Positions 1,839-19,070 of a stretch of 28,667 nucleotides of DNA are shown here, piece after piece (position 1 is the stretch's first letter; each line of letters starts with the position of its first letter). The translations under genes and the position numbers were made by a program. Location: positions 1-28,667 of the IMG/VR virus record IMGVR_UViG_3300020457_000064. One strand, written 5' to 3'. Under the pieces are notes generated by a model that did not search any database, was not told the DNA's origin, and saw only the letters and a program-made list of their open reading frames with translations. The DNA comes from a virus.

Positions 1839-1983
1839 TATTATAGTAAACGATAAGGTGATATTCTCTAGTCTATCTCAGATGGAAATGTTTGATAGAC
1901 TAGAAGACCTCTCGATAGAATTCTATCAGACAGGCACACCGCATCCTAATGACATACGAACTGAAATTATTATGGAGGATTAA
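1816..1983 (+). CDS. Small acidic hypothetical protein (55 aa)
   Basis: The ATG at 1816 lies 23 nt inside the 3' end of the glycosyltransferase-like gene, in another frame, so the two are likely co-translated. The product begins MKKQESYNIIVNDKVIF and continues with a helix SQMEMFDRLEDLSIEFYQTG, then a proline-containing tail (PHPNDIRTEII). The strand-turn-strand-helix pattern and the 'ExxDxxEDLxxEFYxTGxPxP' section resemble short proteins found in many cyanomyoviruses. I cannot assign a function. The next gene begins directly after the stop with no spacer. It may be related to the 57-aa protein at 856-1029. Confidence 0.68.
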   Translation: MKKQESYNIIVNDKVIFSSLSQMEMFDRLEDLSIEFYQTGTPHPNDIRTEIIMED

Positions 1984-2133: not shown

Positions 2134-2136
2134 CTG

Positions 2137-2162
2137 AAGCGTCTCGAAAGGGACGCTTTTTT
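2137..2162 (+). terminator. Rho-independent terminator with GAAA tetraloop
   Basis: AAGCGTCTC (2137-2145) pairs with GGGACGCTT (2150-2158) over 9 bp with one T-G wobble. It is closed by a GAAA tetraloop and followed by a run of T to 2162. It starts 3 nt after the stop of the basic protein gene. It separates the promoter-driven glycosyltransferase cassette from the late structural genes. Confidence 0.9.
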
Positions 2163-2166
2163 AATG

Positions 2167-2173
2167 CTAAATA
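2167..2173 (+). promoter_or_regulatory. Possible second late promoter box (CTAAATA)
   Basis: CTAAATA lies directly after the terminator and 37 nt before the full TATAAATA at 2204. CTAAATA-like variants are used as late promoter boxes in cyanomyoviruses. Here it could be a second start for the gp25 operon or a chance match in AT-rich DNA. Confidence 0.35.
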
Positions 2174-2203
2174 TTTCGATGTATGATTAATCCTAGTAAT
2201 AGG

Positions 2204-2211
2204 TATAAATA
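2204..2211 (+). promoter_or_regulatory. T4-type late promoter (TATAAATA) for gp25-gp6-giant protein
   Basis: An exact TATAAATA lies 34 nt before the gp25 start and after a terminator. In T4 this octamer is recognised by the phage late sigma factor gp55 with gp33 and the sliding clamp. No -35 element is needed, and none is seen here. Confidence 0.8.
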
Positions 2212-2245
2212 TATTAAGAAAACTGTTTATTATTTCTAATTTAAA

Positions 2246-2644
2246 ATGAACACGAGGATATCTAGGTCATTTAAAGATATTAGTTTGTCCTTTAAGAGAC
2301 ATCCAATAACAAATGATATTGGGTCTATTAGGAATGAAGATGCAATTAAAAAATCTGTAAGGAACATAGTTCAAACTATTCCTAGAGAAAAATTCTTTAA
2401 TTCTATCTTTGGTAGTGATATTACTGGTCTTCTATTTGATTTTGTAGACTTTGGTACTGCATCTAATATTCAAAGACAAATAGAGATCTCAATCAATAAT
2501 TTTGAACCAAGAGTTGAAAATTTAGACATAGAAGTAATTCCAAGACCAGATGATAATGCATTTGAAGTAATTATTCATTATGATATCATCGGACAACAGT
2601 TTCCTGCACAAGAGTTTTCCTTTTTATTAGAAGCCACGAGATAA
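2246..2644 (+). CDS. 25: Baseplate wedge subunit gp25
   Basis: The protein belongs to the GPW/gp25 family (T4 gp25 is also 132 aa). It keeps the family's conserved EPR signature (NFEPRVENLDI, Glu87-Pro88-Arg89) and the N-terminal pattern of a sheath-like fold. In contractile tails gp25 sits at the junction of baseplate wedge, tube and first sheath ring, and is thought to trigger sheath assembly. The start ATG at 2246 is the first after the late promoter; there is no strong Shine-Dalgarno. One nucleotide separates its stop from the gp6 start. In T4 gene 25 lies away from gene 6, whereas in marine T4-like phages the 25-6 pair is usual. Confidence 0.93.
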   Translation: MNTRISRSFKDISLSFKRHPITNDIGSIRNEDAIKKSVRNIVQTIPREKFFNSIFGSDITGLLFDFVDFGTASNIQRQIEISINNFEPRVENLDIEVIPRPDDNAFEVIIHYDIIGQQFPAQEFSFLLEATR

Positions 2645-2645
2645 T

Positions 2646-4601
2646 ATGCCTATTACTAAATTTACAAATCTAGATTTTGATCAAATAAAATCTTCCATCA
2701 AGAGTTATCTTCGGGCAAATTCAGATTTTACTGATTTTGATTTTGAAGGTTCTAACTTTTCGGTTTTAATTGACACTCTAGCATATAATACGTATATTAC
2801 AGCATTCAACTCAAACATGGTTGTAAATGAATCTTTTCTAGATTCAGCAACTGTAAGAGAAAATGTTGTATCATTAGCAAGAAATATTGGTTATGTACCC
2901 CGTTCTAGAAGTGCTGCACAGGCATCTGTTTCGTTTAACGTTACAACTGATACTAACTATGATACAGCAGTCTTAAAGGCAGGTTTAGTGTGTACTGGGC
3001 AAACAGATAATAGTTCTTTTGTATTCTCTATTCCTGATGATATAGAAAGAGCTGCAACGGTTGTAACTGATTCTAATGGGCAAGAAACAAGTAGATCTCA
3101 TAATTTTTCAAATATAACAGTCTATCAGGGAGTATATACTACTAAAAAATTCACTGTTGATGGTTCACTAGATCAAAGATTTATATTAGATAATATAGGT
3201 ATTGATACTGCTACTTTAGTTGTATATGTTAATAACTATAATGTTGATACAAATCAATATGAAAGTGTAGGAAGGGGTAATTTATATAAAAAAGTTGATA
3301 ATATTTTAAATATTGATAAAAATTCGGAAATATATCTGTTACAAGAGGTTCAGGATGAAAAATATGAACTTTTATTTGGTGATGGTTACTTTGGTAAAAA
3401 ATTAGAGAGTGGTTCTGTTATTACAATCAGTTATATTATCACTGATGGTGCCTCTGGAAATGGTCCTGGTGGGTCTAGTGGATCAGAAGGTGTATTTACC
3501 TTCTCTGGCACTATAGCAAACCCCTCTGGTGCCCTTATTAGTGTATCTACACCTACAATTACCACTGAAAATAAGGCAAGTAATGGTGGTGAAATCGAAT
3601 CTATCGATTCAATTAAGTATTATGCCCCTAGATTGTATTCATCACAGTACAGGGCGGTTACAGCAAGGGATTATGAGTCAATAATACAGCAAATTTACCC
3701 AAATACTGAAAGTGTTTCTGTTGTTGGTGGTGAAGAAGTGGATCCACCACAATTTGGAACAGTTTTTATCACAATTAAACCAAAAAATGGTGAATTTGTC
3801 TCTGATTTTGACAAAACACAGATACTTTCTGACTTAAAAAACTATTCTTTAACGGGAATTAATCAAAAAATCTTAGATCTTAAAATATTGTACATTGAAC
3901 TCGAAAGTTATGTCTATTATAACGATTCTAAAGTCGAAAATATCAATGATTTGAATGTAAGAGTTACAAATAATCTTGTAAAATACTCAAATTCACTAGA
4001 TCTTAACAAATTTGGAGGAAGATTTAGATATAGTAAAGTTTTAAGTGTAATTGACAATATTGATGACTCAATAACATCAAATATTACAAGAGTAAGAATT
4101 AGAAGGAACTTAAATGCTCTTATAAATCAATTTGCACAGTATGAATTGTGTTTTGGTAACCAATTTAATGTTAAAAAAGAAGGACTTAACATTAAAAGTA
4201 CGGGATTTAAGATATCTGGTTCAAATGACATGGTTTATTTGACAGATACGCCAAATGAAGATGAAAAAACTGGCATAATATCAATTGTTAAACCAGATAT
4301 TATTGATTCTTCAAAAACTGTTGTTGTTGAAGAGGCAGGAACAGTTGATTATATTAAAGGTGAGATAATTTTGACTACAATTAATATAACATCGACTCAA
4401 ATAGCAAATAATGTTATAGAAGTTCAAGCATTTCCAGAATCTAATGACGTTATAGGTCTTCAAGATTTATATCTTCAATTTTCCATTGGAAATAGTTCAA
4501 TAAATATGGTTAAAGACACTATTACTTCTGGACAACAAATATCTGGAGTTGGGTTTAAAGTTACCTCAAGCTATACAAACGGAGCATTAATAAGGGCATG
4601 A
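2646..4601 (+). CDS. 6: Baseplate wedge subunit gp6
   Basis: At 651 residues this is close to T4 gp6 (660). The N-terminal region (FTNLDFDQIKSSIKSYLRAN, then FEGSNFSVLIDTLAYNTY) is typical of gp6/Baseplate_J proteins. The central part has the family stretch around KYYAPRLYSSQYRAVTARDY (about residues 324-343), followed by a region on NTESVSVVGGEE. gp6 forms the heterodimer ring that links the wedges around the hub, binding gp25, gp53 and gp7. A glycine-rich loop (GNGPGGSSGSEG, about 271-282) is inserted before that. The stop overlaps the start of the giant protein gene by ATGA, so the two are probably translated in a coupled way and their products meet in the wedge. Confidence 0.93.
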   Translation: MPITKFTNLDFDQIKSSIKSYLRANSDFTDFDFEGSNFSVLIDTLAYNTYITAFNSNMVVNESFLDSATVRENVVSLARNIGYVPRSRSAAQASVSFNVTTDTNYDTAVLKAGLVCTGQTDNSSFVFSIPDDIERAATVVTDSNGQETSRSHNFSNITVYQGVYTTKKFTVDGSLDQRFILDNIGIDTATLVVYVNNYNVDTNQYESVGRGNLYKKVDNILNIDKNSEIYLLQEVQDEKYELLFGDGYFGKKLESGSVITISYIITDGASGNGPGGSSGSEGVFTFSGTIANPSGALISVSTPTITTENKASNGGEIESIDSIKYYAPRLYSSQYRAVTARDYESIIQQIYPNTESVSVVGGEEVDPPQFGTVFITIKPKNGEFVSDFDKTQILSDLKNYSLTGINQKILDLKILYIELESYVYYNDSKVENINDLNVRVTNNLVKYSNSLDLNKFGGRFRYSKVLSVIDNIDDSITSNITRVRIRRNLNALINQFAQYELCFGNQFNVKKEGLNIKSTGFKISGSNDMVYLTDTPNEDEKTGIISIVKPDIIDSSKTVVVEEAGTVDYIKGEIILTTINITSTQIANNVIEVQAFPESNDVIGLQDLYLQFSIGNSSINMVKDTITSGQQISGVGFKVTSSYTNGALIRA

Positions 4602-7600
4602 TAACGACTGGTATTGATAAAAGAATTCAAGTACAACAAATTGTTGATAATCAACTTCCTGAATTTGTATTAAGTGAAAGTCCGAAGACGGTAGACTTTT
4701 TAAAGCAATATTATATTTCTCAGGAATATCGTGGTGGTCCGATTGATATTACTGATAATTTAGATCAATATTTAAAATTAGATAATTTAACACCTGATGT
4801 TATAGTTGGTGTAACAACATTGGGTGCTAATATTACTAATGAAGATTTAACCATTAATGTTACAAATACGAAGGGATTTCCTAATGAATATGGACTTTTA
4901 AAGATTGGTGATGAGATTATTACATATACTGGTAAAACAAATACTAGTTTTACTGGTTGTGTTCGTGGATTTAGTGGAATAACAACATATCATGATGATA
5001 ATAGTCCAAGAGAATTAGTTTTTTCAACTTCTACTGCAGGAATTCATAATATTGGAGATTCTGTTTCTAATCTTAGTGCTTTATTTTTACAAGAATTTTA
5101 TAAAAAACTTAAATATACATTAACTCCTGGATTAGAAAATGCTGACTTTATATCTGATCTTGATGTTAATAATTTTATAAAAGAAGCAAAGTCATTTTTC
5201 CAATCAAAAGGTACTGAAGAATCTTTTAAAATCCTTTTTAAAGTATTATATGGAGTAGATCCTACAATAATTGATCTTGAAGATTATTTGATTAAACCAT
5301 CATCTTCAAAATATATTAGACGTGAAAGAATTGTTGCTGAAAGAATATCTGGAAATCCAATAAATTTACAAGGACAAACAGTTAGTAGGTCTGCTGATCC
5401 TAATGCTACAGCGTCTATATCCGAAGTTGAACCTGTTTTAGGTGTTCCAGGATCAGGAGTTCTTTCTGATTCTGATTATTTTATTTTGGATGCATTTATC
5501 GGATATGATGATGAAGAATATGTTACTGGAACCTTTAATATTCCAGGTAAAACAAAGGTTATTGGTAACGTATCTACTGGATCAACCATTATTACAGTAG
5601 ATTCTACTGTTGGTTTTGGTACTACTGGTACAATTATATCAGGTATTAACACTAATATTCAATATACTGATAAAACTTTAAATCAATTTTTAAATTGTTC
5701 TGGTGTTAATAATCCAATTTCTTCTGAAGATAATATAAGATTTGATGATAATATTTTTGGATATGAAAATGGGGATATAACAAAGAAAGTAGAGTTAAGA
5801 ATTACTGGAATTTTATCTAAATTTATTCCAAATGAAAATAATAGATTATCAATAGAGAATGAAAAGGTTATTATTAAAAGTCTTGGGGAAAATATTGAAA
5901 AAGGTAGTACAAATAAGGAAATATTTGCCAATTCGTGGATTTATAATTCATCACCATCATATGATATAATTTCTGAAAGTATAACAAGTGAAGGAACTAG
6001 TACTCTAACATTAAAAGAAGATATTCTTGATGTATTTGATACTACAGGACTATCTAAGGGTAATTATGTTGAAATTATTGAAAAAACATCTAATCCGTTT
6101 AAGAATAAATCAATTGTTACACCAATACAGGGAGTATCACCCGCTAAAATTAATGAAATTTCACTAGGTAATAATACAATTAAATTAGTTGATATTGAGT
6201 ATGATTTAGATCGTACAAAAACTTATGCTATAAGAAAGGTTTTAGATAAGGTATCAAGTACGGGTGCACCTGTTAAGTATGGAAATCAGCTAACATCAAA
6301 TGTTCAGAATGTCTATAATGAATCTGATACTCATTTATATGTTGCTTCTAATTCATTACCAAATTACACAATCACTAAAGATATTATAAAATCAGAGATT
6401 CCTATTGCTGATACATCAACAATACGAAATTACAATTCTGTAACTGAAAAATATTCAATAATATCATTTTCTAATAATGTGTCATTTGTTACTGGAGATG
6501 CAGTATATTATAGTGTACCAGAAGGTAAGGCAACATTGGTTGGATTGGAAGAAGGTGTATATTATGTTAAAAAATCTTTAAGTGATGGTCGAAAAATTAA
6601 TTTATACTTATCACCATCTTTTATTGAAACAGATGAACTTTTATCCAGATCTGGAGGAACTCCTAACAATTTCATAGAATTTGGTATACCATTAAAGAAT
6701 AATGACAAACATACTTTTACTTTATTAAAACATTATAATAAGGAAATAGGTAATCAACGATTATTAAAGAAATTTTCCGTAGATTTATCCTTAAATGATC
6801 GTAAAAAAATTGAAACTATTCCTGGACCTGTTGGAATGTTGATTGATGGTGTAGAAATTAATAATTATAAGTCATCAGACAGTATTTTTTATGGTCCAAT
6901 AGATAAATTTTCTGTTATAAGTCAGGGAAGTGGTTATGATGTAATTAATTTACCCGAAGTTTCAATTGTTGGTGGTTTGGGTTCTACTGCATTAGTTAAA
7001 CCTGTTATTGAGGGTGATGTTGAACAAATTTTAGTAGATCCTCAAAATTTTGATATTGAAAGTGTAAATTCAATAAAACTTACTGGTGGTAATAGTAGTG
7101 AAACTGTTATAAGACCTGTTGTTAGTAAAAGAAATAGAGAATTAGAGTTTGATGGAAGATTGGCTACTGCTAATGGTGGGGTTGATAACCAAGCAGAAAC
7201 AATAACCTTTAAAGAAAATCATAATTTAAAAAGTGGGCAAGTATTGATTTATGATAGAAATAGAAATAATCAATTAGGGATTACTACATGGGGTGGAAGT
7301 AATGCTGATGAATATAATTCTTTAATTCAGGGTGAACAATATTGGCCAGAAGTAGTTGGATTGAGTACTATTAAATTATTTGGTAATGAAAATGACTATA
7401 ATAGTGGTATTAATACCATAGCATTTACTTCTATTAATAAATCTGGTATTCATAAATTTAGACTTAAAGAGGCTAAAAATACCTTAAAATCTGTTGAAAT
7501 TATATCTTCAGGTGCTCCATTTACAAATCGTCAAGTTTATGTTAATCCAACTGGAATTTCTACATTTACTTCTACAGTTTCCTTTGATAATCATGGTTTT

Positions 7601-10600
7601 TCTGATGGAGAATTGATTAGTTATACAACTGCTGTTGGAATTGGTTCTACACTTCCCATATCTATTAGTGGTTTATCAACTTCAATTCAATATAAGGTTG
7701 TCAAAGTAGATAATAAATCTTTCAGACTTTGCGATGCTGGAATTGGTGGAACGTCAAATATAAATTATAATAATAATGATTATGTTAAATTTGGATCAAC
7801 AGGAACTGGATATCAGGTATTTAAGTATCCAGATATTCAAATTTCTCCAGAGGTTACATATTCTGTTTCAACATCTGATAAAATAAACTTAACTCCTATT
7901 ATTAAAGGTAAAGTAGTTGATGTAATACTTTATGAAAAGGGATCTTCATATGGTTCTCAAACAGTTATTAATTATCAAAATAATCCAGATATTATAACAA
8001 AAATTGGAAATAGTAGAACGGGAACTGTTATTCAACCAGCATTACAACCAATTATATCTGGTAGTAAAATAATTAAAGTTAATATTCAAAATGGCGGTGG
8101 TGAATATTATTCAATTCCTAATATAGAAGTCGTCGGTGATGGATCTAATGCAAAGATAAGACCAATAATAGATACTGACCCAAATTCAGAAACTTACTTA
8201 TCTATTATTGATCTAAAAATTATTAATGGTGGTGTTGGATTTACTACAAGTAAAACATCTATTAAGGTTACACCATCTGGGTCTAATGCAGTTTTTGGAT
8301 TAGATATTAGAAAATTAACTATAAACAATATAGAAAAATATGGTAGTGAGATACTAGAAGAATCTCAAAATGGATTAAGATATTCTGTAGTTGGATATTC
8401 TACAGATATTGGTTCTGATTATTATAATGATCCTAATCCTACTACTAATCATTCTTCAATTATCGGATGGGCTTACGATGGCAATCCAATATATGGTCCT
8501 TATGGTTACAGTGATCCTACTAAATTAGGTCCAGATATTAAGACCTTACAACCAAGTTACAAATTAGATACTTCTCAAGTTATTGATAGACCTGGTATTA
8601 CTACATTTGCAGCTGGATTTTTTGTTGATGATTATGTATATGATTCTACTATTGGTGATCTAGATGAACATAATGGAAGATATTGTAAAACTCCTGAGTA
8701 TCCTAATGGAGTATATGCTTATTTCGTAGGGGTAACAAGCGATATACCTGGACAAACTCCAAAATTCCCATATTTTATTGGAAATACTTATAGATCATCA
8801 GATGATGTTCTGGATCCAGAATTTAAAATAACACAATCCTTTGATTTTAATAATTCAGATTTAGTTAGAAATACTGCATCATATAAGATGATTTCTGAAT
8901 TTACAAATAATGATTTTATTATAGATTCGGATAAATTAGTTCCACAATTAACAGTTGTTGAATCAGTAACTCGTGGATCTGTAGATTCCTTAGAGATTGT
9001 CAATTCAGGTGAAAATTATAAATTAGGAGATAGTATCATATTTAATAATGAAAATACTGATGGATCTGGATTAAGTGCTAGTGTTAATTCAATATCTGGT
9101 GTACCAATAACAAATATTGAGACAATATATGAAGAATATGCAAATGTAAAATTAGTATGGAAGAATTCTAATACAGTATCTGTATCTATTTCAACATTCC
9201 ATGATTTATCTACTGGTAATAGTATTGAAATTTCTGGCATATCTAGTGATCTTAAATCAGTTACTGGATCTCATATTATTGGTGTTAATAGTGAGTCTAC
9301 ACTTTTATATCAAGAATGTATTGCAAATCCAACATCATTGGGTATTGTAACAGATGTTGTTGTTGGTAGAACATCTGATTTAATTTCTGTTGGTAGTAGT
9401 ATTGGTATTGGTTCAGAAAGATTTTTTGTTCTTAATAAGTTTGAAGATAGAAATATATTGAGGTGTGTTAGAGGTATTACTGGTACGGCACATACAATTT
9501 CTTCAAAAGTTACATTAATTCCAAATTCATTTGATATACCAGTAAAAACTGATTATTTTGACTCAAGATTGAATAAAGTTGTTTATTTTAATCCAAAACA
9601 GTCAGTTGGTATTGCAACTGTTGCTGGATTTTCAACGTCAATAACTGTTACAGTTGCTGGTCTTTCAGAAACAGTATCTGTACCTGCTCAAAGCATATAT
9701 CTTCCAAATCACGGATTTAAAACAGGAGATAAATTGATCTTTAAGGAACCTTTAAATATTGGATTTACCAATATTGGTGTATCTACTAATGGGGTTCCTG
9801 GTGGTAATGTTACTAGTATTGGTCACGATGATATTGTATATGCTATCAATAAGTCTAAGGATTATATAGGAATTGTTACTAATGTTGCTGAGATTGGATC
9901 TGGAATAGGAACAATTGGTCAAAGTTCTGGATTATATTTTATTAGTGATGCTGATGATGATTTCAGATACTCATTTAGAACACAATATAATCAAGTAACT
10001 GCTACCGCAGAAAAAATTCTAACAACAGTTTCTCTTTCTACTGATCATCAATTACGAGAACAAGATATAATTAATTTAGAAGTTAAACCAAGAGAATCTG
10101 TTGGTATTGGAACTTCTACTGCAATTAAAGTCAAATATCATAGTATTAAAAATAAATTATTAATTAATCCAATTGGATTTAATTCTACTGGTGTTAATAC
10201 TACTACAAATACATTAACTATTAATGCTCATGGATTAAAAACTGGAGATAAAGTATTATATGATAATACTGGTGTTGGTCAAACTATTGTTGGTGGTTTA
10301 AGTACTACTGGATATTTTGTTTATAGAATAGATGATAATAATATTAAATTATCAAATACTTATGCTCAATCTACAAAAGTTCCTCCTGATGTTGTATCTT
10401 TAACTGATAAGGGTGGTATTTCCCATGAGTTGTCTCTAATTAATCCTCCAATCAATATTATAAGAGATAATAATTTAGTATTTGATGTTTCAGATTCTTC
10501 ATTGTCTGGATATGATTTTAATTTATATTATGATAATAATTATGTCGATAATTTTGTATCTACTGGAAAAACTGATAGTTATATAATATCTAAAGTTGGA

Positions 10601-13600
10601 GCATCTGGAACTACTGGTTCTACTGTAACATTAAACTATTCTGATAATAATCCATTAAATTTATTTTATAATATAGAAAAAGGTGGATTTATAAGCACAT
10701 CTGATATTGATGTTGTCAATAAATCAAAAATTTCTTATATTGATAGTAAGTATAATAATAATTATTCTATTTTAGGTGTTACTAGTACTTCCTTTAAGGT
10801 TGTAGTAGAAGATAAACCAGAAATTCTTGGATATGCTGCAACTGCTATAGGAATAGGAACTATAACATATAATACTGATTCTATAAGGGCACGTGGTCCA
10901 ATTAACGATATTAAACTTAATTTTGGTGGAGAAGGATATAAGCAATTACCTACATTTGTAAGTGTTGCTTCAACTCAAGGAAAAAATGCTATTGTTTTAC
11001 CAAGATCTAAAAATGCAAATAAAATTAATAATACTAGTATATTAAATGTTGGATTTGAGTATTCTTCTGATAAAACTTTAGTACCAATAGCAAAAGTATC
11101 TCCTGTAATAGCATTAAAGAATTTTGATACAATTAAATCAGTAACTATAACAGATGGTGGTTCTGGATATCAATCTAACCCTAAATTAGTTGTTGTTGAT
11201 GCAGATACTAGACAAATTGTTGATTCTGGTGCTTTGGAGGCAATTGTTAGTCCATCAACTCAATCAATTGAGAATGTTAATGTATTATCTGAACCAAAAG
11301 GTATTGGTAATGCTTTAATATATGCAATTGATGGTACAAATGGTGTTACAATTACTAATGTTGATATTTGTTCATCCCAACCTAATAGTACAATAACAGG
11401 TATTGTTACATTTGTTTTAGGTACACCTGTACTTGGATTTAGCGAAATTCCATTTGCAATAGGGGATTCTGTATTTGTTGAGAATGTACAAAATATTGAT
11501 GATAATGGAACCACACTTAATTCACCAAGTAATGGATTTAAAACTTATCCAGTAACAAAAATAAATTCAACAAATCCATTTGAATTGGAAATTAATATAA
11601 ATGGTATTGCACCAAATCCTGGATTTGCAAAAGCAGAACAAATTTTTGCAACTTTAATTAATTATAGTAAGTATCCTAAATTTACTATAACTCAAGAATC
11701 TACAGGATTTATTGAAGGAGAAAATATATTAGTAGATAATAATGGACAATTTATTGATAGAGAACTTATTCTAGATAAAATTGGCAATGATTATATAAAA
11801 ATATTAGGTAAATATGATTTAAAGATTGATGATAAAATTAAAGGTGAGACTAGTGGTACTGTTGCTACTATTAATACCTTATATGAAAATAAAGGGTTTT
11901 TTACAGTAGATTATTCTTCTAGAAGAGATATTGGTTGGCTTGATAATATTGGAAAATTAGATCAAGACTATCAAGTATTACCTGATAATGATTATTATCA
12001 AAATCTATCTTATACTATTCAAAGTCCAATTGAATATAAAGAATTAATTGATCCTGTAAATAGATTGGTTCATACTACTGGACTTAAGAATTTTGCAGAT
12101 ACTGGAATTAGTTCTAGTACTAGTTCTGGATTAACAACAGCAGTAGATGCTTCAACTATAGTTCGTGATTTTCTTAGTGATAATAGGGTAGATTCTATTA
12201 ATGGATTTGATATGGTTAGGGATATTGATATTCTTACAAATCCATTAAGATCAAAATATATTCAATTTAAAAATAAAGAGTTAGTAAATTATTTCAAATG
12301 CAAAACTAATAGAGTTCTAGAAATAGATAATATTAATCGTTTATTTTCAAACGCAACAAATAATGCTAGTGTTACTGGAGATATTATATTAGCAAATGGT
12401 TATGATAGATTTTTGATTCAAGTTAGAAATCCAGAAAATAATGATATTCAATGTTCGGAAATTGTTACTTCAATAGATTATAACAATAATGATGTATATA
12501 CTATTGAAAGAGGTTCATTATCAAATACTGGTAAGGATGATACTTACAGAAGCCTTACAGATGTTATAGGAGTTTATGATGATGGTTATAAACTACAATT
12601 TATACCAAATAACACGTTTGATATAGATCTTGATATTAAAATTTTCCAAAATTCGTTTAATTCTATAAGTGGTGATATTAATACTGGAATTGGAACAACT
12701 AGTGTTGGTTTCTCTGAGTTAACTGGTATTGGTGCTCAGGTTGGTGCTGGTACTACTGTTACACTTACTTCAGATAATGTAGCGAATATGGAATCATATT
12801 TTGTATCTGCTGAGTTAAGAGATACTACTACTTTTGAGAATCAAATTGTTGATCTTTATATAACTCATGATGGAACAAATTCTTATATTGCTAGTTATGA
12901 CTTAGATATAAACAATGATAGTGGTATTGGTACTTTCTCATCAAAAATAGATTCTAATATTTTACATGTAGAATATACAAATGATAGATCCAATACAGTT
13001 GAAGTTAGATCTAAAATAGTAGGTTTTGGTACTACTGCTTCTGGTATTGGAACTTATAGATTTAAGTCTGCAGAACAACCAGATGGAAGTGAAGATTCTA
13101 TAAGGATACATTCTAATTTTGTAAATGTTGCATTAGGAGCAACTACAACTATTGCTCAATTTAATAAGACAAAAGATAGTACTGTTAAGAGTATAATAAG
13201 AACTTCAATAGGAAATACTAGCTCTGTACATCAATTATTAATGATTCATGATGGAACTGATACATTTATTGAACAGTATCCATTTATTTCTATCGGTAAT
13301 GATATTGGAATAGGTACTTTCTCTTCAAGTATAAGTGGATCTAATTTTAATTTAATCTTTACACCAAATACAGAATTTTATGGTGGTGGTAATATAGAAG
13401 TTCAAATTTTTAGTGAAATATTTAATACTAATATTGATAGTATTAACACACCTTCAATTCTTACTTACGGAAAATCTATTGATTCATTATCATTATTACA
13501 ATTTGATGGATCAAATAGTCTTAGAGGAAATAATAATGCCTTTAGATTAAGATATAAAGATACTCCAATTTTTGGAAAATATTTTAATCCTGATTCCAAT

Positions 13601-16600
13601 TCTTTAGTATCTTCTACTGGAATGTTTACTATTAAAGACCATTTCTTTAATAATAATGAAAAATTAGTTTATACCCCAGGATCTTCAATTGATAGTGTTG
13701 GAATCTCATCACTTGTAATGACTGGTGGAAACCCATTACCAAAAGAAGTTTATTGTATAAAGAGTGATACTGATAAATTCCAAGTATCGACTACGTTAGG
13801 TGGTTCAGCAGTAACATTCTCTGCATTAGGATCTGGTAATTATCATAGATTTGAAATGGATAAGAAAAATGAGAAGAGTTTAATTGTTCTAGACGATATT
13901 ATTCAATCACCTTTGGCATATACTCCAATTAAACATACTCTTACTGGTAATGTTAGTGGTCAGGTTTCTATATCAACATCAGTACTTTCTGTTTCTGGTA
14001 TTTCTACGATAGTTATTAATGATATTTTAAAAATTGATGATGAATATGTAAAAATAATCAATGTTGGTATAGGAACTACTAATGTTGGTCCAATATCACC
14101 CTCAGGTTCTTTAAAACTTATTGAAGTTGAAAGAGGATTTGTTGGAACATCTGCATCTACTCACACAGATACTGCTGATGTAAGATTATATAAAGGTGGA
14201 TATAATATTGTTGGGGATACAATTTACTTTAGTGAGGTACCTCGTGGAAATAATGAAATAGCAAAAACTGAGTCTAATAGAAATACTGGTAAAGCAAACT
14301 TTAGTGGAAGAGTTTATTTAAGGCAAGATTATTCTTCTAATGTAATATTTGATGACATATCATCAGAATTTACAGGAATAGGAAGAACATTTGTAATAAC
14401 TTCAAGTGGTATCAATACAATTGGTCTTACAACAGGAAGTACTTTAATGACGGTTAATGGTTTCTTCCAAAAACCAACTACTGAAAATAACTTAGGTAAT
14501 AATTATACATTTGATGGTAATGAAGCAGTAGGAATTACTAGTATAGTATACACTGGTATTACTTCAAATAATGGAGTTCTTATTGTTAGTGATACAGATG
14601 TTAATCAAAACCAACTTCCTAGATCTGGTCAGATTATTTCAATAGCATCTACTGGTGGATTAGGTATAGCACCTTTGGTTGGAGCAGCAGTAACAGCAGT
14701 TATTGGTGCTAATAAATCTATTGTATCTGTTGGTTTAGGAATTAATGATTTTAATGGATCTGGATATAGTTCTGGATTAAGTACAACTGGAGATGGTTTA
14801 ATATCTATTGGAATAATAGATGCTGCATATGATCATAGATTTGAGAGTGCTGTTACAAATTCTGTAACAGTCTCTGCAAATGGAATTGGTGCTAATGCAA
14901 CATTTACACCTACAGATGTTTCATATACGTCCAATACAGGCGTTCTAGTGTTGACAAAAAATGCTCATGGTCTTCTTACATCTGATTCTCATCAAGCAAC
15001 TACTGGGACGCAATATGATGCTACTGTCGGTATTATGACTGTTAAATTGGCAGCAACACCTAGTCCTGCACTTGCAGATGGTCAGTTAGTTAAAATTGAT
15101 GATCTTGGAGTTAAGTTTAAGTGTGCTTTGGATTCTAATGCTACTGATCATGATTATCCAAGAGAAAGTGATCCTCTTAGTGGTAAATGGGTTCCAATTT
15201 CTAATGTAAGTGGTGGAGATAAATTTGAAATTACTGTATTAGATTATGCTCCATCATCTAATACCAGTGTTCATACTTTTGTATCTGGTGTTGCTGGTGC
15301 TATTAAGAGATCTGCTAATACCTTATCAATTGCTAATAATGGTTTAACATTTAAATGTTCAAAGGATGGATATGCAACTGATCATACATATCCACGTGCA
15401 GGTGTTGATCCTGTTGCTGGAGTATCTACTACAATTGTAGAAGCAACTTCAAATAGTATTACTGTTAATGTTGGTTCTGGTGGTGGAGTTGGAACAGGAG
15501 CATCAATTAGAGCATCTGTTGGTGTTGGTGGAACTTTAACCTTTGAAGTTGTTACTGGTGGAAGTGGATATGTTAATCCTATTATTATGCCACCTTCCCC
15601 ATCATATGAAAATCTTGAAATAATTGGTGTGTCTAAATTATCAGTTGGTTCAACTACTGATACTGGAAAGGCAGCATTAATATCTCTTGATGTTGGACCT
15701 GTTTCTACGACTGGAATAGGATCGACTTTATATGAGGTTAAATCTTTTGAATTAACAAGAAAGGGTTATGGATTTGAAAAAGGAGATGTATTCAGACCAA
15801 TATTTGATGGTGAAATTGCAAATAAAGTTGGAATAGTTACTGATAAAGGTCTTTCATCAATGTTAAGTAATTTTGAAATTACCGTTGATAGTATATACAC
15901 TGATACATTTGCAATGTGGAATTTAGGTGAATTTGATTATCTAGATTCGATTCAAAGTCTTCAAGATGGAAGTAGAGTTAGATTCCCTTTAAATTTTAAT
16001 GGTGAATTGGTTGTATTTAAAACAGATTCAAGGGACGTTGATTCTCAGTTAATTGACATAAGATCTTTATTATTAATATTCGTTAATGGTGTTTTACAGG
16101 TTCCAGGAGAATCTTATCTATATGATGGTGGAACAAGTTTTGTATTTACAGAACCACCAGATGAATTTGATAATATTGCTCTTTTCTTCTATAAAGGAAC
16201 AAACAATGTAGATATTGAATATACTGATATAGTAGAAACCATAAAAACTGGTGATGAACTTCAAATTCTTAAAGATCCTGATAATAGGATATTAGATCAA
16301 GAAAAAAGAACAGTTTTAGGAATAACTACTTCTGATGTTGTTCAAACAAATTTATATTTTGATGTTGGTATTGATGATGATTTTGACAGACCTGTAGTTT
16401 GGAGCAAACAAAAACGTGATAAAATTATTAATGGTGAAAGTGTTTATAAATCAAGACCATCAATTGAACCATTGATATTCCCACAATCTAAAATAATTTC
16501 TGGATTAACAACAAATTCTACTGAACTTTTTGTAGATACTTTAAATTTATTTAATTATGAACTTGAATCACCTTTAAGTGTAAATGCATTAATTGTTGAT

Positions 16601-17419
16601 AATTCACAAACTTTAGCAGGTGCTTCTCTTACTGCTGTTGTTTCTGCTACTGGTACTGTTAGCTCTATTTCAGTTGTTGATGGTGGTTCAGGTTATGTTG
16701 GGACAACAACTGATGTTTCAATTGGAATACCAACAACTGGTCTATCAGGTACTGGTCTTAATCCTATTGCCCTTGGAACTGCAAATATTACTGCTGGAAT
16801 TATTACTAGTGTTACTGTCACAAATCCTGGAACAGGATATACTAGATCAAATCCACCACAAGTTATTGCACCAATACCAACGGCACCAAAAGAAGTTATT
16901 AGTGGTATTGCCAATACTGCTGGATTCTCTGGAATAGTTACTGGAATAACAACAACGAATGGAACCTCAGGTAATCCATTAGCATTAAAGTTCTTTATTA
17001 ATAGACCAGATGGTGTATCATGTGCTCCTTTATCTGTTGGATATCCAATTCATATTTTTGATACTTCGGTTGGATCTGGAGTAACTTCTATTGATAGTGG
17101 AAATGATGCTATAGTTGGAATAGGAACTACTTATTTGGATAATATTTACTATGTTCATTCAAGAGTAGTGACTGGTCCAAATAGATTTGAGTTTGTGGCA
17201 AATGTCGATTCTGGTTCTAATATTATTGGAATAGGAACAACTGGAATTGGATGTGGTAAATTCTCTTGGGGTAGATTATCTGGATTTACTAGATCATCAG
17301 ATCCAATATCTATTGCAGTAACTGGAAAAACAGTTAATACAGGATTCACAACTTATCCAACTATACAAAGAAGGAAAGCTGGGATTAGGGGCACTGGTGC
17401 AATAGACACTAAATTATAG
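4598..17419 (+). CDS. Giant modular baseplate/structural protein with YHYH-like domain (4273 aa), in the gp7 position
   Basis: One uninterrupted frame covers almost half of the window. Residues 1-60 (QIVDNQLPEFVLSE..., QYYISQEYRGGPIDI) and about 180-240 (FIKEAKSFFQSKGTEESFK, GVDPTIIDLEDYLIKPS) are of a type seen at the N-terminus of large cyanophage structural proteins. From about 770 onward GxGY beta-type repeats recur (near 777, 966, 1113, 1166, 1210, 1468, 2110, 2187, 3653, 3720, 4028, 4077). A YHYH-like domain lies at about 1280-1375 (GWAYDGNPIYGPYGY, DLDEHNGRYC, YAYF). Two tandem repeats of about 130 aa cover about 2690-2950, and two FKC-ATDH-YPR repeats lie near 3500 and 3585. The C-terminus is GKFSWGRL...RRKAGIRGTG. 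There is no signal peptide or membrane segment. Position between gp6 and gp8 matches T4 gp7 (1032 aa), so a wedge protein with long decorations is likely. Homology to gp7 cannot be shown here. Confidence 0.85.
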   Translation: MITTGIDKRIQVQQIVDNQLPEFVLSESPKTVDFLKQYYISQEYRGGPIDITDNLDQYLKLDNLTPDVIVGVTTLGANITNEDLTINVTNTKGFPNEYGLLKIGDEIITYTGKTNTSFTGCVRGFSGITTYHDDNSPRELVFSTSTAGIHNIGDSVSNLSALFLQEFYKKLKYTLTPGLENADFISDLDVNNFIKEAKSFFQSKGTEESFKILFKVLYGVDPTIIDLEDYLIKPSSSKYIRRERIVAERISGNPINLQGQTVSRSADPNATASISEVEPVLGVPGSGVLSDSDYFILDAFIGYDDEEYVTGTFNIPGKTKVIGNVSTGSTIITVDSTVGFGTTGTIISGINTNIQYTDKTLNQFLNCSGVNNPISSEDNIRFDDNIFGYENGDITKKVELRITGILSKFIPNENNRLSIENEKVIIKSLGENIEKGSTNKEIFANSWIYNSSPSYDIISESITSEGTSTLTLKEDILDVFDTTGLSKGNYVEIIEKTSNPFKNKSIVTPIQGVSPAKINEISLGNNTIKLVDIEYDLDRTKTYAIRKVLDKVSSTGAPVKYGNQLTSNVQNVYNESDTHLYVASNSLPNYTITKDIIKSEIPIADTSTIRNYNSVTEKYSIISFSNNVSFVTGDAVYYSVPEGKATLVGLEEGVYYVKKSLSDGRKINLYLSPSFIETDELLSRSGGTPNNFIEFGIPLKNNDKHTFTLLKHYNKEIGNQRLLKKFSVDLSLNDRKKIETIPGPVGMLIDGVEINNYKSSDSIFYGPIDKFSVISQGSGYDVINLPEVSIVGGLGSTALVKPVIEGDVEQILVDPQNFDIESVNSIKLTGGNSSETVIRPVVSKRNRELEFDGRLATANGGVDNQAETITFKENHNLKSGQVLIYDRNRNNQLGITTWGGSNADEYNSLIQGEQYWPEVVGLSTIKLFGNENDYNSGINTIAFTSINKSGIHKFRLKEAKNTLKSVEIISSGAPFTNRQVYVNPTGISTFTSTVSFDNHGFSDGELISYTTAVGIGSTLPISISGLSTSIQYKVVKVDNKSFRLCDAGIGGTSNINYNNNDYVKFGSTGTGYQVFKYPDIQISPEVTYSVSTSDKINLTPIIKGKVVDVILYEKGSSYGSQTVINYQNNPDIITKIGNSRTGTVIQPALQPIISGSKIIKVNIQNGGGEYYSIPNIEVVGDGSNAKIRPIIDTDPNSETYLSIIDLKIINGGVGFTTSKTSIKVTPSGSNAVFGLDIRKLTINNIEKYGSEILEESQNGLRYSVVGYSTDIGSDYYNDPNPTTNHSSIIGWAYDGNPIYGPYGYSDPTKLGPDIKTLQPSYKLDTSQVIDRPGITTFAAGFFVDDYVYDSTIGDLDEHNGRYCKTPEYPNGVYAYFVGVTSDIPGQTPKFPYFIGNTYRSSDDVLDPEFKITQSFDFNNSDLVRNTASYKMISEFTNNDFIIDSDKLVPQLTVVESVTRGSVDSLEIVNSGENYKLGDSIIFNNENTDGSGLSASVNSISGVPITNIETIYEEYANVKLVWKNSNTVSVSISTFHDLSTGNSIEISGISSDLKSVTGSHIIGVNSESTLLYQECIANPTSLGIVTDVVVGRTSDLISVGSSIGIGSERFFVLNKFEDRNILRCVRGITGTAHTISSKVTLIPNSFDIPVKTDYFDSRLNKVVYFNPKQSVGIATVAGFSTSITVTVAGLSETVSVPAQSIYLPNHGFKTGDKLIFKEPLNIGFTNIGVSTNGVPGGNVTSIGHDDIVYAINKSKDYIGIVTNVAEIGSGIGTIGQSSGLYFISDADDDFRYSFRTQYNQVTATAEKILTTVSLSTDHQLREQDIINLEVKPRESVGIGTSTAIKVKYHSIKNKLLINPIGFNSTGVNTTTNTLTINAHGLKTGDKVLYDNTGVGQTIVGGLSTTGYFVYRIDDNNIKLSNTYAQSTKVPPDVVSLTDKGGISHELSLINPPINIIRDNNLVFDVSDSSLSGYDFNLYYDNNYVDNFVSTGKTDSYIISKVGASGTTGSTVTLNYSDNNPLNLFYNIEKGGFISTSDIDVVNKSKISYIDSKYNNNYSILGVTSTSFKVVVEDKPEILGYAATAIGIGTITYNTDSIRARGPINDIKLNFGGEGYKQLPTFVSVASTQGKNAIVLPRSKNANKINNTSILNVGFEYSSDKTLVPIAKVSPVIALKNFDTIKSVTITDGGSGYQSNPKLVVVDADTRQIVDSGALEAIVSPSTQSIENVNVLSEPKGIGNALIYAIDGTNGVTITNVDICSSQPNSTITGIVTFVLGTPVLGFSEIPFAIGDSVFVENVQNIDDNGTTLNSPSNGFKTYPVTKINSTNPFELEININGIAPNPGFAKAEQIFATLINYSKYPKFTITQESTGFIEGENILVDNNGQFIDRELILDKIGNDYIKILGKYDLKIDDKIKGETSGTVATINTLYENKGFFTVDYSSRRDIGWLDNIGKLDQDYQVLPDNDYYQNLSYTIQSPIEYKELIDPVNRLVHTTGLKNFADTGISSSTSSGLTTAVDASTIVRDFLSDNRVDSINGFDMVRDIDILTNPLRSKYIQFKNKELVNYFKCKTNRVLEIDNINRLFSNATNNASVTGDIILANGYDRFLIQVRNPENNDIQCSEIVTSIDYNNNDVYTIERGSLSNTGKDDTYRSLTDVIGVYDDGYKLQFIPNNTFDIDLDIKIFQNSFNSISGDINTGIGTTSVGFSELTGIGAQVGAGTTVTLTSDNVANMESYFVSAELRDTTTFENQIVDLYITHDGTNSYIASYDLDINNDSGIGTFSSKIDSNILHVEYTNDRSNTVEVRSKIVGFGTTASGIGTYRFKSAEQPDGSEDSIRIHSNFVNVALGATTTIAQFNKTKDSTVKSIIRTSIGNTSSVHQLLMIHDGTDTFIEQYPFISIGNDIGIGTFSSSISGSNFNLIFTPNTEFYGGGNIEVQIFSEIFNTNIDSINTPSILTYGKSIDSLSLLQFDGSNSLRGNNNAFRLRYKDTPIFGKYFNPDSNSLVSSTGMFTIKDHFFNNNEKLVYTPGSSIDSVGISSLVMTGGNPLPKEVYCIKSDTDKFQVSTTLGGSAVTFSALGSGNYHRFEMDKKNEKSLIVLDDIIQSPLAYTPIKHTLTGNVSGQVSISTSVLSVSGISTIVINDILKIDDEYVKIINVGIGTTNVGPISPSGSLKLIEVERGFVGTSASTHTDTADVRLYKGGYNIVGDTIYFSEVPRGNNEIAKTESNRNTGKANFSGRVYLRQDYSSNVIFDDISSEFTGIGRTFVITSSGINTIGLTTGSTLMTVNGFFQKPTTENNLGNNYTFDGNEAVGITSIVYTGITSNNGVLIVSDTDVNQNQLPRSGQIISIASTGGLGIAPLVGAAVTAVIGANKSIVSVGLGINDFNGSGYSSGLSTTGDGLISIGIIDAAYDHRFESAVTNSVTVSANGIGANATFTPTDVSYTSNTGVLVLTKNAHGLLTSDSHQATTGTQYDATVGIMTVKLAATPSPALADGQLVKIDDLGVKFKCALDSNATDHDYPRESDPLSGKWVPISNVSGGDKFEITVLDYAPSSNTSVHTFVSGVAGAIKRSANTLSIANNGLTFKCSKDGYATDHTYPRAGVDPVAGVSTTIVEATSNSITVNVGSGGGVGTGASIRASVGVGGTLTFEVVTGGSGYVNPIIMPPSPSYENLEIIGVSKLSVGSTTDTGKAALISLDVGPVSTTGIGSTLYEVKSFELTRKGYGFEKGDVFRPIFDGEIANKVGIVTDKGLSSMLSNFEITVDSIYTDTFAMWNLGEFDYLDSIQSLQDGSRVRFPLNFNGELVVFKTDSRDVDSQLIDIRSLLLIFVNGVLQVPGESYLYDGGTSFVFTEPPDEFDNIALFFYKGTNNVDIEYTDIVETIKTGDELQILKDPDNRILDQEKRTVLGITTSDVVQTNLYFDVGIDDDFDRPVVWSKQKRDKIINGESVYKSRPSIEPLIFPQSKIISGLTTNSTELFVDTLNLFNYELESPLSVNALIVDNSQTLAGASLTAVVSATGTVSSISVVDGGSGYVGTTTDVSIGIPTTGLSGTGLNPIALGTANITAGIITSVTVTNPGTGYTRSNPPQVIAPIPTAPKEVISGIANTAGFSGIVTGITTTNGTSGNPLALKFFINRPDGVSCAPLSVGYPIHIFDTSVGSGVTSIDSGNDAIVGIGTTYLDNIYYVHSRVVTGPNRFEFVANVDSGSNIIGIGTTGIGCGKFSWGRLSGFTRSSDPISIAVTGKTVNTGFTTYPTIQRRKAGIRGTGAIDTKL
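12640..13450 (+). repeat. Tandem protein repeat inside the giant gene
   Basis: Two consecutive units of about 130-140 codons share the same order of motifs. The first has DLYITHDGTNSYIASYDLDINN then DSGIGTFSS; the second has LLMIHDGTDTFIEQYPFIS then DIGIGTFSS. Each ends in a strand-rich section with EVRS or EVQIFSE. The linker GTYRFKSAEQPDGSEDSIR joins them. The DNA has diverged, so this is an old duplication. Boundaries are approximate. Confidence 0.65.
15085..15450 (+). repeat. Two FKC-ATDH-YPR repeats inside the giant gene
   Basis: The first copy reads GVKFKCALDSNATDHDYPRE followed by SDPLSGKWVPI. The second reads GLTFKCSKDGYATDHTYPRA followed by GVDPVAGVSTTI. The shared core is G-h-x-FKC-x-x-D-x-x-ATDH-x-YPR-x-x-x-DP-x-x-G, with about 80 residues between copies. 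Each has a single Cys and a conserved His, which could be structural. Confidence 0.7.
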
Positions 17420-17427
17420 TATAAATA
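17420..17427 (+). promoter_or_regulatory. T4-type late promoter (TATAAATA) for gp8
   Basis: An exact TATAAATA starts one base after the giant gene's stop codon and ends 20 nt before the gp8 ATG. It fills the 28-nt gap between the two genes. It would allow gp8 and the 2425-aa protein to be made independently of a 15-kb transcript starting at the first late promoter. Confidence 0.82.
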
Positions 17428-17447
17428 AAGAAAAAAAGCTATAGAAG

Positions 17448-19070
17448 ATGGCGGCAATTGTAACAGATCAGTTTAGAATCAATAATGCTAGTAATTTTTT
17501 GGGGGATATTAATGATCCTTCAAATTCTTATTATGTGTTTGTGGGTTTGTCAAATCCTGGAATAGGTAATGCGTATGGTAGAACTGAAAGTCCTGCCAAA
17601 TGGAATTCTGATGGTTCCAGACCAAATCCAACTGATAATTTTAATTATTTAAATCATACCAAAGATACAATGATTTTTGGTAAGAAGGTTAATATAGATA
17701 ATGCTAGAAGAGTTATTAGAAAAGAAACTTGGACTAAAGGAACTCAATATGAAATGTATCGCCATGATTATCATATAGAAAATCAATCACCAAAAACATT
17801 TTCTTCTAGATTATATGATGCAAAATATTATGTAATTAATAAAGATTTTAGCGTTTATATTTGTATTGATAATGGTTCTTCAGGAATTAATACTACTGGA
17901 AATCTTTCTCAAAATGAACCTCTCTTTACTGGGTTAGAACCATCTGCTGCATCAGGAGATACTGATGATGGGTATGTATGGAAATACTTATTTACTGTTG
18001 CTCCAAGTGATATTATAAAATTTGATGCAACTGAGTATATACCTTTACCAAATAATTGGTCAACTTCTACTGACGCTCAAATACAATCTGTAAGAGATAG
18101 TGGAAATGCTGATATAAACAATAATCAAATTAAAAAAGTTTATATTGATGAAAGAGGTAATTCATATTCTGGTGGATTAGGTCAAGAATTTAATATTGTT
18201 GGTGATGGATCTGGTGGAAAAGTTATTGTTGATGTTGAGGGAACTCAAATAACTAAAACACAAGTTTCTGTTGGTGGTAAAGGATATACTTATGGTATGG
18301 TTGATTTAACCAATATTTCATCTGGTGCAATTAGTAATAATACTCCTGCTAAATTAGTTCCTATTATTCCACCATCAAAGGGACATGGATATGATTTATA
18401 TAAAGAATTAGGTGCTGATCGAGTTTTAATTTATGCTAGATTTGACGACTCTACAAAGGATTTTCCTTTAGATACTAAATTTGCACAAATTGGTATAGTT
18501 AAAAATCCTACTTCAATTGGATCAACATCGGTATTTACACAAAATCAATTTTCTTCGGTATCTTCATTATATCTTAGTGATTATCCAACAACTCCTATTG
18601 CTATTGGAACAAAAATTACTCAGAACATACAATCTGATGGTAAAGTTGTTGGAGAAGCAAGAGGTTACCTTGTTTCTTTTGATGAAATTTCATCTAACCC
18701 TAAAATTGCGATTCTAAAATATTATCAGGATAGATCATTGTATTTTAACCAAACTACTGGTGATCAAACAGATACATCTGGTATAAGTAGTTCTGGTTCT
18801 ACTACTGATGGAAAAATTTATCAATTCCAATCTGATGGAACTGAAGTTTCTATTGGCAGTACTACATGTGTTATTAATACCAATTTTTCTGGTATTACTA
18901 CAAATCCAACTGGTAATAAAGTTATTGAACTTGGTACTCAGTTCACAGATGGCATCTCAAGTTCTGAGATAAATAATCAGTCGGGTGATATTATCTATTT
19001 GGATAATAGAGCCTTAATCACAAGGGACAAACGACAAAAAGAAGACATTAAAGTTATCTTGGAATTCTAA
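17448..19070 (+). CDS. 8: Baseplate wedge subunit gp8 (540 aa, enlarged)
   Basis: The N-terminus (IVTDQFRINNASNFL..., YYVFVGLSNP) lines up with the start of T4 gp8 (KFRTEKMLNFYNS, IFITFGRSEPW). The DGYVWKYLF motif (about 174-182) matches T4 DGYVWEYLF, IGIVKNP matches T4 ISIITNP, and the end (GDIIYLDNRALITRDKRQ, then EDIKVILEF) matches the T4 gp8 C-terminus (GEMIYMENRPPI..., EINILFTF). gp8 is a wedge protein that binds gp7 and gp10 and takes part in sheath contraction signalling. T4 gp8 is 334 aa. The extra 200 residues include a middle insertion (about 225-300) with two glycine-tyrosine beta repeats (RGNSYSGG, GGKGYTYG) like those in the giant neighbour, and another between IGIVKNP and the C-terminal motif. 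A late promoter precedes it, and 5 nt separate it from the next gene. Confidence 0.92.
   Translation: MAAIVTDQFRINNASNFLGDINDPSNSYYVFVGLSNPGIGNAYGRTESPAKWNSDGSRPNPTDNFNYLNHTKDTMIFGKKVNIDNARRVIRKETWTKGTQYEMYRHDYHIENQSPKTFSSRLYDAKYYVINKDFSVYICIDNGSSGINTTGNLSQNEPLFTGLEPSAASGDTDDGYVWKYLFTVAPSDIIKFDATEYIPLPNNWSTSTDAQIQSVRDSGNADINNNQIKKVYIDERGNSYSGGLGQEFNIVGDGSGGKVIVDVEGTQITKTQVSVGGKGYTYGMVDLTNISSGAISNNTPAKLVPIIPPSKGHGYDLYKELGADRVLIYARFDDSTKDFPLDTKFAQIGIVKNPTSIGSTSVFTQNQFSSVSSLYLSDYPTTPIAIGTKITQNIQSDGKVVGEARGYLVSFDEISSNPKIAILKYYQDRSLYFNQTTGDQTDTSGISSSGSTTDGKIYQFQSDGTEVSIGSTTCVINTNFSGITTNPTGNKVIELGTQFTDGISSSEINNQSGDIIYLDNRALITRDKRQKEDIKVILEF

Follow-up and report, generated by a model that had tools for sequence, protein, structure and literature searches.

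What kind of protein is encoded by the giant open reading frame (ORF) that fills 12,822 of the 28,667 bases (45%) of the viral sequence IMGVR_UViG_3300020457_000064 (IMG/VR), and which part of it could belong to a baseplate wedge? The whole stretch of 28,667 bases, positions 1 to 28,667 of that record, is referred to below as the window. The ORF (4598–17419, + strand, 4273 codons) starts with ATG, overlaps the stop codon of gp6 with its start and continues in a single frame to its own stop, representing the whole gp7 gene. With a probability of about 0.8, it encodes the gp7 orthologue of a T4-like myovirus of the cyanophage type, in which residues 1–312 and 2441–2530 form the wedge core, an insertion lies between these two parts and a tail follows them. 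The contribution of the analysis is the split: gp7 appears to be divided by an insertion and not simply enlarged. The preliminary description of this DNA had suggested a wedge core combined with a large structure, which holds at the sequence level, more specifically as a core split by insertion.

The gene order on the + strand is gp25, gp6, the giant ORF, gp8 and a VrlC-type gene, with the ORF as the gene between gp6 and gp8, the position of gp7. The order of gp25, gp6, gp7, gp8 and a large gene is also found in ten relatives (P-SSM2, S-SRM01, P-HM2, S-T4, S-MbCM7, phiN3, HTVC008M, S-CREM2, S-CAM7 and ACG-2014f), the last of these genes bearing the annotation VrlC or VriC in five of them. In the PHROGs database the ORF matches phrog_2885 (‘baseplate wedge subunit’) from end to end within one frame, residues 2–4259 falling on profile positions 2–4178 of 4179 (3550 bits), as expected of the giant gp7 family. 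The uninterrupted + strand frame of 4273 residues at exactly 4598–17419 is real, and its assignment to the gp7 position is confirmed by gp6/gp8 synteny, phrog_2885 and profile matches to T4 gp7. Orthology of gp7 has already been assumed by some authors, as a table in PMC5349666 gives gp7 counterparts in cyanophages and HTVC008M with 4–7.4% identity to DLP6 gp7.

The core was traced with two profiles, one of the N-terminal part (residues 1–300, 70 sequences) and one of the stretch around residues 2446–2510, called the island below (residues 2420–2560, 44 sequences). The N profile matched all 16 other gp7-type proteins tested, T4 gp7 giving an expectation value (E) of 2.1e-4 before iteration. 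Specificity was evaluated on 469 other frames of the same loci (stop-to-stop, at least 100 amino acids (aa), both strands, many of them not genes), among which the best E of the island profile was 0.46. In the iterated N-profile search the best unrelated frames reached independent E-values (i-E) down to 2.9e-6 through a shared beta module, and matches of this profile were therefore counted as core only if they included the part with the KGT motif. After relatives were added with T4 held out, T4 gp7 was matched by both profiles, at 729–758 (i-E 9e-8) and 865–913 (i-E 5e-4), while the best unrelated island matches in the three iterated rounds were 0.1, 0.44 and 1.2. The first core motif (the KGT helix, T4 729–758) is present in the window gp7, and the second (SY...HPxG, T4 ~860–910) is present downstream of it, weak alone and correct in rank and order. 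Residues 1–60 occupy the position of the wedge-core helix-turn-helix.

The link to T4 was also obtained from PDB sequences. Profiles from 15 phages (N part) and 11 phages (island), T4 left out, were compared with 177,635 PDB sequences. T4-type gp7 took ranks 1 and 2 in both searches, with E 1.1e-6 and 2.4e-6 for the N part (next 0.2) and E 0.012 and 0.079 for the island (next 0.57). In the first of these, 9f4a gp7, the N part falls on 731–813 (an alignment that includes residues 240–312) and the island on 846–909, in the same order. In PHROGs, T4 gp7 corresponds to phrog_964 over its full length and also matches phrog_2885 at 196–224; residues 1–420 of the window protein match phrog_964 at 725–756 (E 5e-4), and phrog_26741 (497 positions) holds both the N part (84–144) and the island (375–447). 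The Pfam family PF23786 (Baseplate_wedge) was recorded at residues 187–221 below the Pfam cut-off, and a phmmer search of PDB sequences with the whole protein returned nothing at E 10. T4 gp7 residues 1–640 had no phmmer match in the window gp7 at E 100, a comparison of sequence that does not address fold. These 640 residues are not defining for gp7, since relatives of ~500 aa have no room for them. Both core parts also exist in the 6619-aa gp7 of S-SZBM1.

Judged from sequence, a single gp7 wedge core thus appears to be made up of two stretches, residues 1–312 and 2441–2530. This core is contiguous in T4 (~650–910), contained within 500 aa in the small relatives and divided into two parts in the window gp7. 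No description of a split gp7 core was found in searches of open-licence PubMed Central papers.

The distance from KGT to YYQ..SY is 120 residues in T4, 285–305 in pf16, X1 and Yut2, 435 in Melnitz-3, 568 in HTVC008M, 847 in phiN3, 1629 in S-MbCM7, 1684 in S-CREM2, 2191–2205 in three cyanophages, 2262 in the window, 2275 in P-SSM2, 2400 in P-HM2 and 2763 in S-RIM2. The second motif is constant in size: both patterns were located in 15 of 17 proteins, and in every one of these YYQ..SY and HPAG are separated by 25–26 residues. The two exceptions are S-T4, whose island escaped the patterns, and S-RIM2, which has HPAS in place of HPAG; both of these islands were found by the profiles, and the place in T4 was set by hand. 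A spacing of 2262 residues against 120 in T4, with the second motif unchanged, gives ~2,130 residues inside the core and ~1,740 after it. After HPAG, 28–31 residues remain in S-CREM2 and phiN3, 74–148 in X1, Yut2, pf16 and T4, 217–236 in HTVC008M and Melnitz-3, and 1781 in the window. A third growth point, site A, lies between the first two core pieces (Table 1), and its module is itself interrupted by ~500 residues in S-RIM2, S-SZBM1 and S-TIM4, an insertion within an insertion.

Table 1. Features of the window; residue numbers refer to the giant gp7 unless another protein is named.
Feature	Position	Strand	Evidence or remark
gp25 wedge subunit	2246..2644	+	phrog_261 ‘baseplate wedge subunit’; name gp25 from place and size as in P-SSM2
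gp6 wedge subunit	2646..4601	+	phrog_219, PF21379; expected partner of the core
Residues 1–60, putative first core part; predicted helices 5–25, 30–45, 48–59	4598..4777	+	Identity 0.82 in 1–50; aligned in 15 phages; model pLDDT <50
Site A, residues 66–150, beta module inserted in the putative core	4793..5047	+	Absent in pf16, X1, Yut2, phiN3
Residues 159–224, putative core helices with KGT motif (residue 204), matching T4 gp7 729–758	5072..5269	+	Profiles
Residues 240–312, small beta domain, probably that of T4 gp7 ~765–845	5315..5533	+	Profile alignment, VIA-align
Site B, residues 313–2440, ~2,130 residues apparently inserted in the core, mostly beta as modelled	5534..11917	+	Motif spacing; model to residue 1180
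Second copy of the site A beta module, residues 315–370	5540..5707	+	i-E 0.0011 before the model saw it; best of 200 shuffles 0.054
YHYH-type domain PF14240, residues 1280–1380	8435..8737	+	85.5 bits, cut-off 25; profile 88–183 of 193; one copy
Residues 2441–2530, putative second core part, D...YYQ..SY.I......H..G, matching T4 gp7 ~846–910	11918..12187	+	Profiles; bin identity 0.75
Site C, residues 2531–4273, C-terminal extension	12188..17416	+	Absent in S-CREM2 and phiN3 (end ~30 residues after HPAG)
Two YPR-type repeat copies, residues 3480–3625	15035..15472	+	Repeat counts
gp8 wedge subunit	17448..19070	+	phrog_438, PF09215
VrlC-type giant protein, 2425 aa, DUF4815	19076..26353	+	PF16075; phrog_358 (unknown function)
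Copy of the gp7 beta module in the VrlC-type protein (its residues 2011–2071)	25106..25288	+	i-E 4.9e-6, first round

Conservation was calculated as identity per 50-residue bin over 99 related rows, rows more than 80% identical being left out. Residues 1–50 are the most conserved (0.82), residues 51–250 have 0.66–0.69 against a protein mean of 0.495, and bin 2451–2500 (0.75) is the top bin outside residues 1–50. The stretch 2424–2613 matched a single place in each of 262 phage records, and the island stretch also matches the wedge gene of Caulobacter phage Cr30. The conserved N-terminus and the island at 2446–2510 anticipated in the preliminary description are thus both real. Two other islands named there are not confirmed: the bins from 3801 are about average (0.56, 0.43, 0.48 and 0.46, with 19–32 rows in most of the region), and the last, C-terminal bin has 0.57 from 8 rows. 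Lack of similarity of the islands to wedge proteins, which was to refute that description, does not apply to the N-terminus and 2446–2510, which match the T4 gp7 core parts; for 3801–4273 nothing was found in Pfam. Bins 451–550 are strongly variable (0.29 and 0.26). A metagenomic set was formed by the best 80 of at least 599 ORFs with the same N-terminus, i.e., by the closer relatives. All 38 of these that run beyond 2750 aa carry one island at an offset of 2325–2472, and this near-fixed offset shows that the giant ORF is not a chance frame; the remaining 42 end at the end of their locus, only one of them reaching the island.

The protein after gp6 varies widely in length. Short forms comprise X1 (498 aa), Yut2 (503), pf16 (523), Melnitz-3 (896), phiN3 (1006), HTVC008M (1016) and T4 (1032), and the short forms extend into Kyanoviridae, under which HTVC008M and Melnitz-3 are filed. 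Among the 11 cyanophage gp7 proteins measured, four are smaller than the window protein of 4273 aa (S-CREM2 1937, S-MbCM7 3533, S-SRM01 3895, ACG-2014f 4225) and seven are larger (S-CAM7 4314, P-HM2 4454, S-T4 4749, P-SSM2 5195, S-RIM2 6378, S-TIM4 6603 (ORF101) and S-SZBM1 6619); ten named cyanophages have versions of 3533–6619 aa at this locus. The protein is about four times as long as T4 gp7, as was first noted, and its size is exceptional against T4 but ordinary for the giant cyanophage gp7 family. The 7312-aa baseplate wedge initiator of P-SSM4 is given as the largest bacterial-virus protein in the data of PMC8553790. The window gene is one more case of a giant baseplate protein already known from phages of ocean cyanobacteria. 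At E 1e-5, and with part-length matches included, 465 phage records match the first 2000 residues and 225 match the last 1940. Placement of the phage in Kyanoviridae rests on its closest relatives.

The giant gp7 proteins of phrog_2885 (P-SSM2, S-SRM01, S-T4, S-CAM7, ACG-2014f) occupy the same locus as the window gp7, contain both core parts in order and differ in length and repeat number; across the first 2000 residues, the 40 records listed are 35–45% identical to the window protein. T4 gp7 (phrog_964; 5IV5, 5HX2, 9F4A) likewise lies between gp6 and gp8 and keeps the order of the two motifs, first the KGT helix and then SY...HPxG; however, ~650 residues precede its core and 120 separate the motifs, whereas the extra mass of the window protein is inside and after the core. 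The small gp7 of pf16, Xanthomonas phage X1 and Stenotrophomonas phage Yut2 (phrog_26741, ~500 aa) follows gp6 and has both parts in order, but lacks the site A module, with 285–305 residues between the motifs and 74–116 after them. A scan of viral contigs with pf16 gp7 for further small relatives returned pf16 itself only. S-CREM2 ORF122 and S-SZBM1_208 also follow gp6 and contain both core parts, like the window gp7; the former ends just after the island, and the latter carries ~500 more residues inside the site A module. Other genes are located between gp7 and gp8 in Melnitz-3, S-RIM2, S-TIM4 and S-SZBM1, and no gp8 is annotated adjoining gp7 in pf16. XM1 gp17 (242 aa) and the gp7-like part of AlgoCIS Alg12, which is fused to a gp6-like part, are described as gp7 wedge parts meeting peripheral spikes or fibres (PMC10457771, PMC8894135) and are likened to the window gp7 by description, not by sequence.

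Annotation of the gp7 locus is uneven. PHROGs scatters the apparent orthologues under conflicting names: phrog_2885 and phrog_17744 (wedge), phrog_3465 (head closure Hc2), phrog_4406, phrog_701, phrog_19630 and phrog_18802 (head and packaging) and phrog_26741 (unknown), as seen at 14725–17775 of the HTVC008M locus (L115) and at other gp7 loci. In S-SKS1 (NC_020851) two separate wedge coding sequences are annotated at the gp7 locus, and the N-terminal region is unannotated though N-terminal similarity is present; this fragmented locus is left out of the length comparison above.

Several observations weigh against a split core or against parts of it. The single miss of the island profile among the 16 other gp7-type proteins was T4; the island–T4 link is weak alone (E 0.012 and 0.079) and takes its weight from rank and order; and the window's own island used by itself has no match to the T4 family in PHROGs at E 1. 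An unrelated ORF that shares the beta module reached E 8.5e-4 with the N profile, near the 2.1e-4 of T4, and bin 251–300, inside the proposed first core part, is poorly conserved (0.43). Structure prediction gave little help with the core. The AlphaFold2 model of residues 1–1180 (64 sequences) has a mean predicted local distance difference test score (pLDDT) of 64.7, is largely beta after residue 240 and includes beta lobes of good confidence at ~770–1120; in the core, residues 1–69 are below 50 and the later helices at ~45–77. In the model of the full-length 1016-aa HTVC008M gp7 (47 sequences, mean pLDDT 48.8) the core is unusable. Foldseek found no match of either model in the PDB at E 0.001. 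VIA-align placed model residues 240–419 on T4 chain 5iv5_BJ 765–856 (Z 6.8, root-mean-square deviation 3.9, 86 aligned), but this chain was 7th of 47 rows with a middling Z, behind unrelated chains, and only the register makes the match of interest. It was taken as gp7 from its 1004 residues and numbering, 5iv5 also appearing under gp7 in the PDB profile search. With the HTVC008M model, VIA-align paired this stretch of T4 with the site A module, so that this fold recurs. As AlphaFold2 produced no confident core, the joining of the two gp7 core parts is something that we infer.

By analogy, the protein would most likely act as a wedge anchor that sits on (gp6)2 and bears a large structure at the periphery. 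Residues 1–60, 159–312 and 2441–2530 could come together into a wedge core that binds the gp6 dimer and would correspond to the core bundle plus trifurcation unit in the terms used for XM1 and AlgoCIS. At sites A, B and C the added chain could leave the core to form the periphery, with one fixed point for the looped-out insertion and another for the C-terminal tail. Lengths from 498 to 6619 aa would be explained if the protein grew by insertion at a few fixed sites while anchored by its core. Six copies could then ring the baseplate with a large peripheral structure to which VrlC or fibres dock and which may make contact with the host surface. The outward position and host contact rest on analogy, and host sensing is conjecture. 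The analogy comes from several systems. T4 gp7 is a monomer present in six copies that contacts gp6, gp8, gp9 and gp10, and during the shape change of the baseplate one of its domains moves outwards (PMC3004832). XM1 gp17, a 242-aa T4 gp7 orthologue, is part of the core bundle together with two gp16 (gp6-like) chains, and its loop 80–106, inside the core domain, and its C-terminus meet tail spikes (PMC10457771). In AlgoCIS, the corresponding part of Alg12 has been described as a hotspot of evolutionary re-engineering (PMC8894135).

Presence in virions is reported for two relatives. S-SZBM1_208 (6619 aa, tied to the gp7 locus by its length) was represented by 71 peptides with 13.5% coverage (PMC9146016, Table 1), and S-CREM2 ORF122 (1937 aa) by 91 unique peptides with 27.2% (PMC10665884, Table 3). 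Absence from virions, which would have spoken against the preliminary description, is thus contradicted in print for these relatives; the reports concern them and not the phage of the window. According to PMC9146016, S-SZBM1 has no long tail fibres; this would be compatible with, but is no proof of, participation of a gp7 skirt in adsorption. A wider proposal, which we regard as doubtful, is that the baseplate periphery of marine T4-like phages is largely a single-chain outgrowth of gp7, modules accreting at fixed points inside and after the split core, and that six chains (~2.8 MDa for the window gp7, scaled from the S-SZBM1 mass and the six copies of T4) would form a host-contacting skirt that assumes tasks handled in T4 by separate proteins such as gp9–gp12 and the long fibres and passes contact directly to the gp6 ring via the two core parts.

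A narrower form of the same explanation, in which the long part is a scaffold or docking skirt for VrlC and fibres and not a host sensor, has about an even chance. It agrees with the contacts of T4 gp7 with gp8, gp9, gp10 and gp6 (PMC3004832), with the XM1 gp17 regions that meet spikes (PMC10457771) and with the sharing of the inserted module with the VrlC-type protein, as expected of structural building blocks; the strong variation in bins 451–550, on the other hand, would also fit exposure to a changing host. The same shared module could be taken as a sign that the giant ORF is an unrelated structural protein, T4 gp7 being missing in marine T4-like phages with VrlC in its place. Such a replacement is stated in PMC7029224, which reports that pelagimyophages and cyanomyophages lack T4 gp7 and that VrlC appears to replace it, and PMC3037559 includes gp7 among the divergent genes of the non-cyanophage core. 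Yet both core motifs occur in order in the giant ORF and in 15 of 15 non-T4 relatives, the reference pelagimyophage HTVC008M has both gp7 core parts as well as a separate VrlC gene, T4-type gp7 tops both PDB profile searches, and the matches listed for VrlC-type proteins among the 469 other frames fall only in the beta module (profile 58–136). This reading is very unlikely.

Cleavage of the ORF product as a precursor into a wedge core and separate outer proteins could be suspected from the very long chain and from the published peptide coverage of 13.5–27.2% in relatives. A cut between the two distant parts would separate the core, no protease domain is listed for the ORF in the PHROGs and Pfam scans, and T4 gp7 is listed as a 119-kDa monomer (PMC3004832); processing of this kind is very unlikely. 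Tail-borne hydrolase activity of gp7 on the host surface, through its YHYH-type domain, is unlikely too. A metal-dependent hydrolase was predicted for phage YHYH domains (PMC7824862) and conservation is good in some stretches of this region (0.61 at 1251–1300 and 0.68 at 1351–1400), but the PF14240 match begins at position 88 of 193 and lacks the YHYH string, so that the proposed site may be incomplete, and bin 1301–1350 is average (0.46).

A gp7 with a split core would have several consequences. It shows the probable seat of the conserved wedge part in some of the largest bacteriophage proteins on record and indicates to structural biologists which ~300 of the 4,273 residues should pack on gp6 and which would be periphery. 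It argues against the published view that cyano- and pelagimyophages have no gp7 (PMC7029224) and links PHROGs families that are kept apart, some of them labelled ‘head closure’ or ‘head and packaging’. It also opens to testing the general question of whether phage baseplates become larger through module insertion at fixed positions in the gp7 core.

Values for the beta module in Table 1 are those of the first round only, since copies found in later rounds had already been added to the model. Residues 1844–1921 of the VrlC-type protein, whose name was transferred from the gene at the equivalent place in relatives (annotated VrlC/VriC), show a weak match to phrog_438, the gp8 family (E 7e-4). 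Neighbouring baseplate genes may exchange modules with one another.

In a further search the YHYH-type domain scored 91.8 bits. The YHYH string and the N-terminal half of the PF14240 profile were not found in it; for this reason the domain is called YHYH-type only and no enzyme is claimed. The region also matches seven contigs (L227–L233), inside long ORFs, labelled as metagenome-assembled genomes (MAGs) of Flavobacteriales, Euryarchaeota, Gamma- or Betaproteobacteria. By eye, the ORF starts of five of them (L227, L229, L230, L231 and L233) read as gp7-type. These are probably viral contigs binned into MAGs.

The YPR-type repeat is present nine times in P-SSM2 (gp7 3538–4493), six times in P-HM2, five times in S-TIM4, twice in the window and once in S-RIM2, with none in the other 14 proteins; in 300 shuffles of the window gp7 it occurred at most once. 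The repeat number may account for part of the C-terminal length differences. Another pattern, G.GY...P.V, was counted seven times in gp7 (mean 0.8, maximum 5 in 200 shuffles) and is real and uninformative.

Promoter and terminator scans of 15000–28667 remained at shuffle level, no tRNA was found in the window, and a near-identity DNA search produced only one 34-base match, in two records of one phage. Upstream of the wedge genes, 1077–1838 encodes a 253-aa protein of phrog_1574, a family of unknown function, with a weak glycosyltransferase match. At the other end of the window, a 397-aa ORF (26914–28107) has stretches matching many tail-fibre and wedge families and contains an 18-base tandem repeat at 27372–27407.

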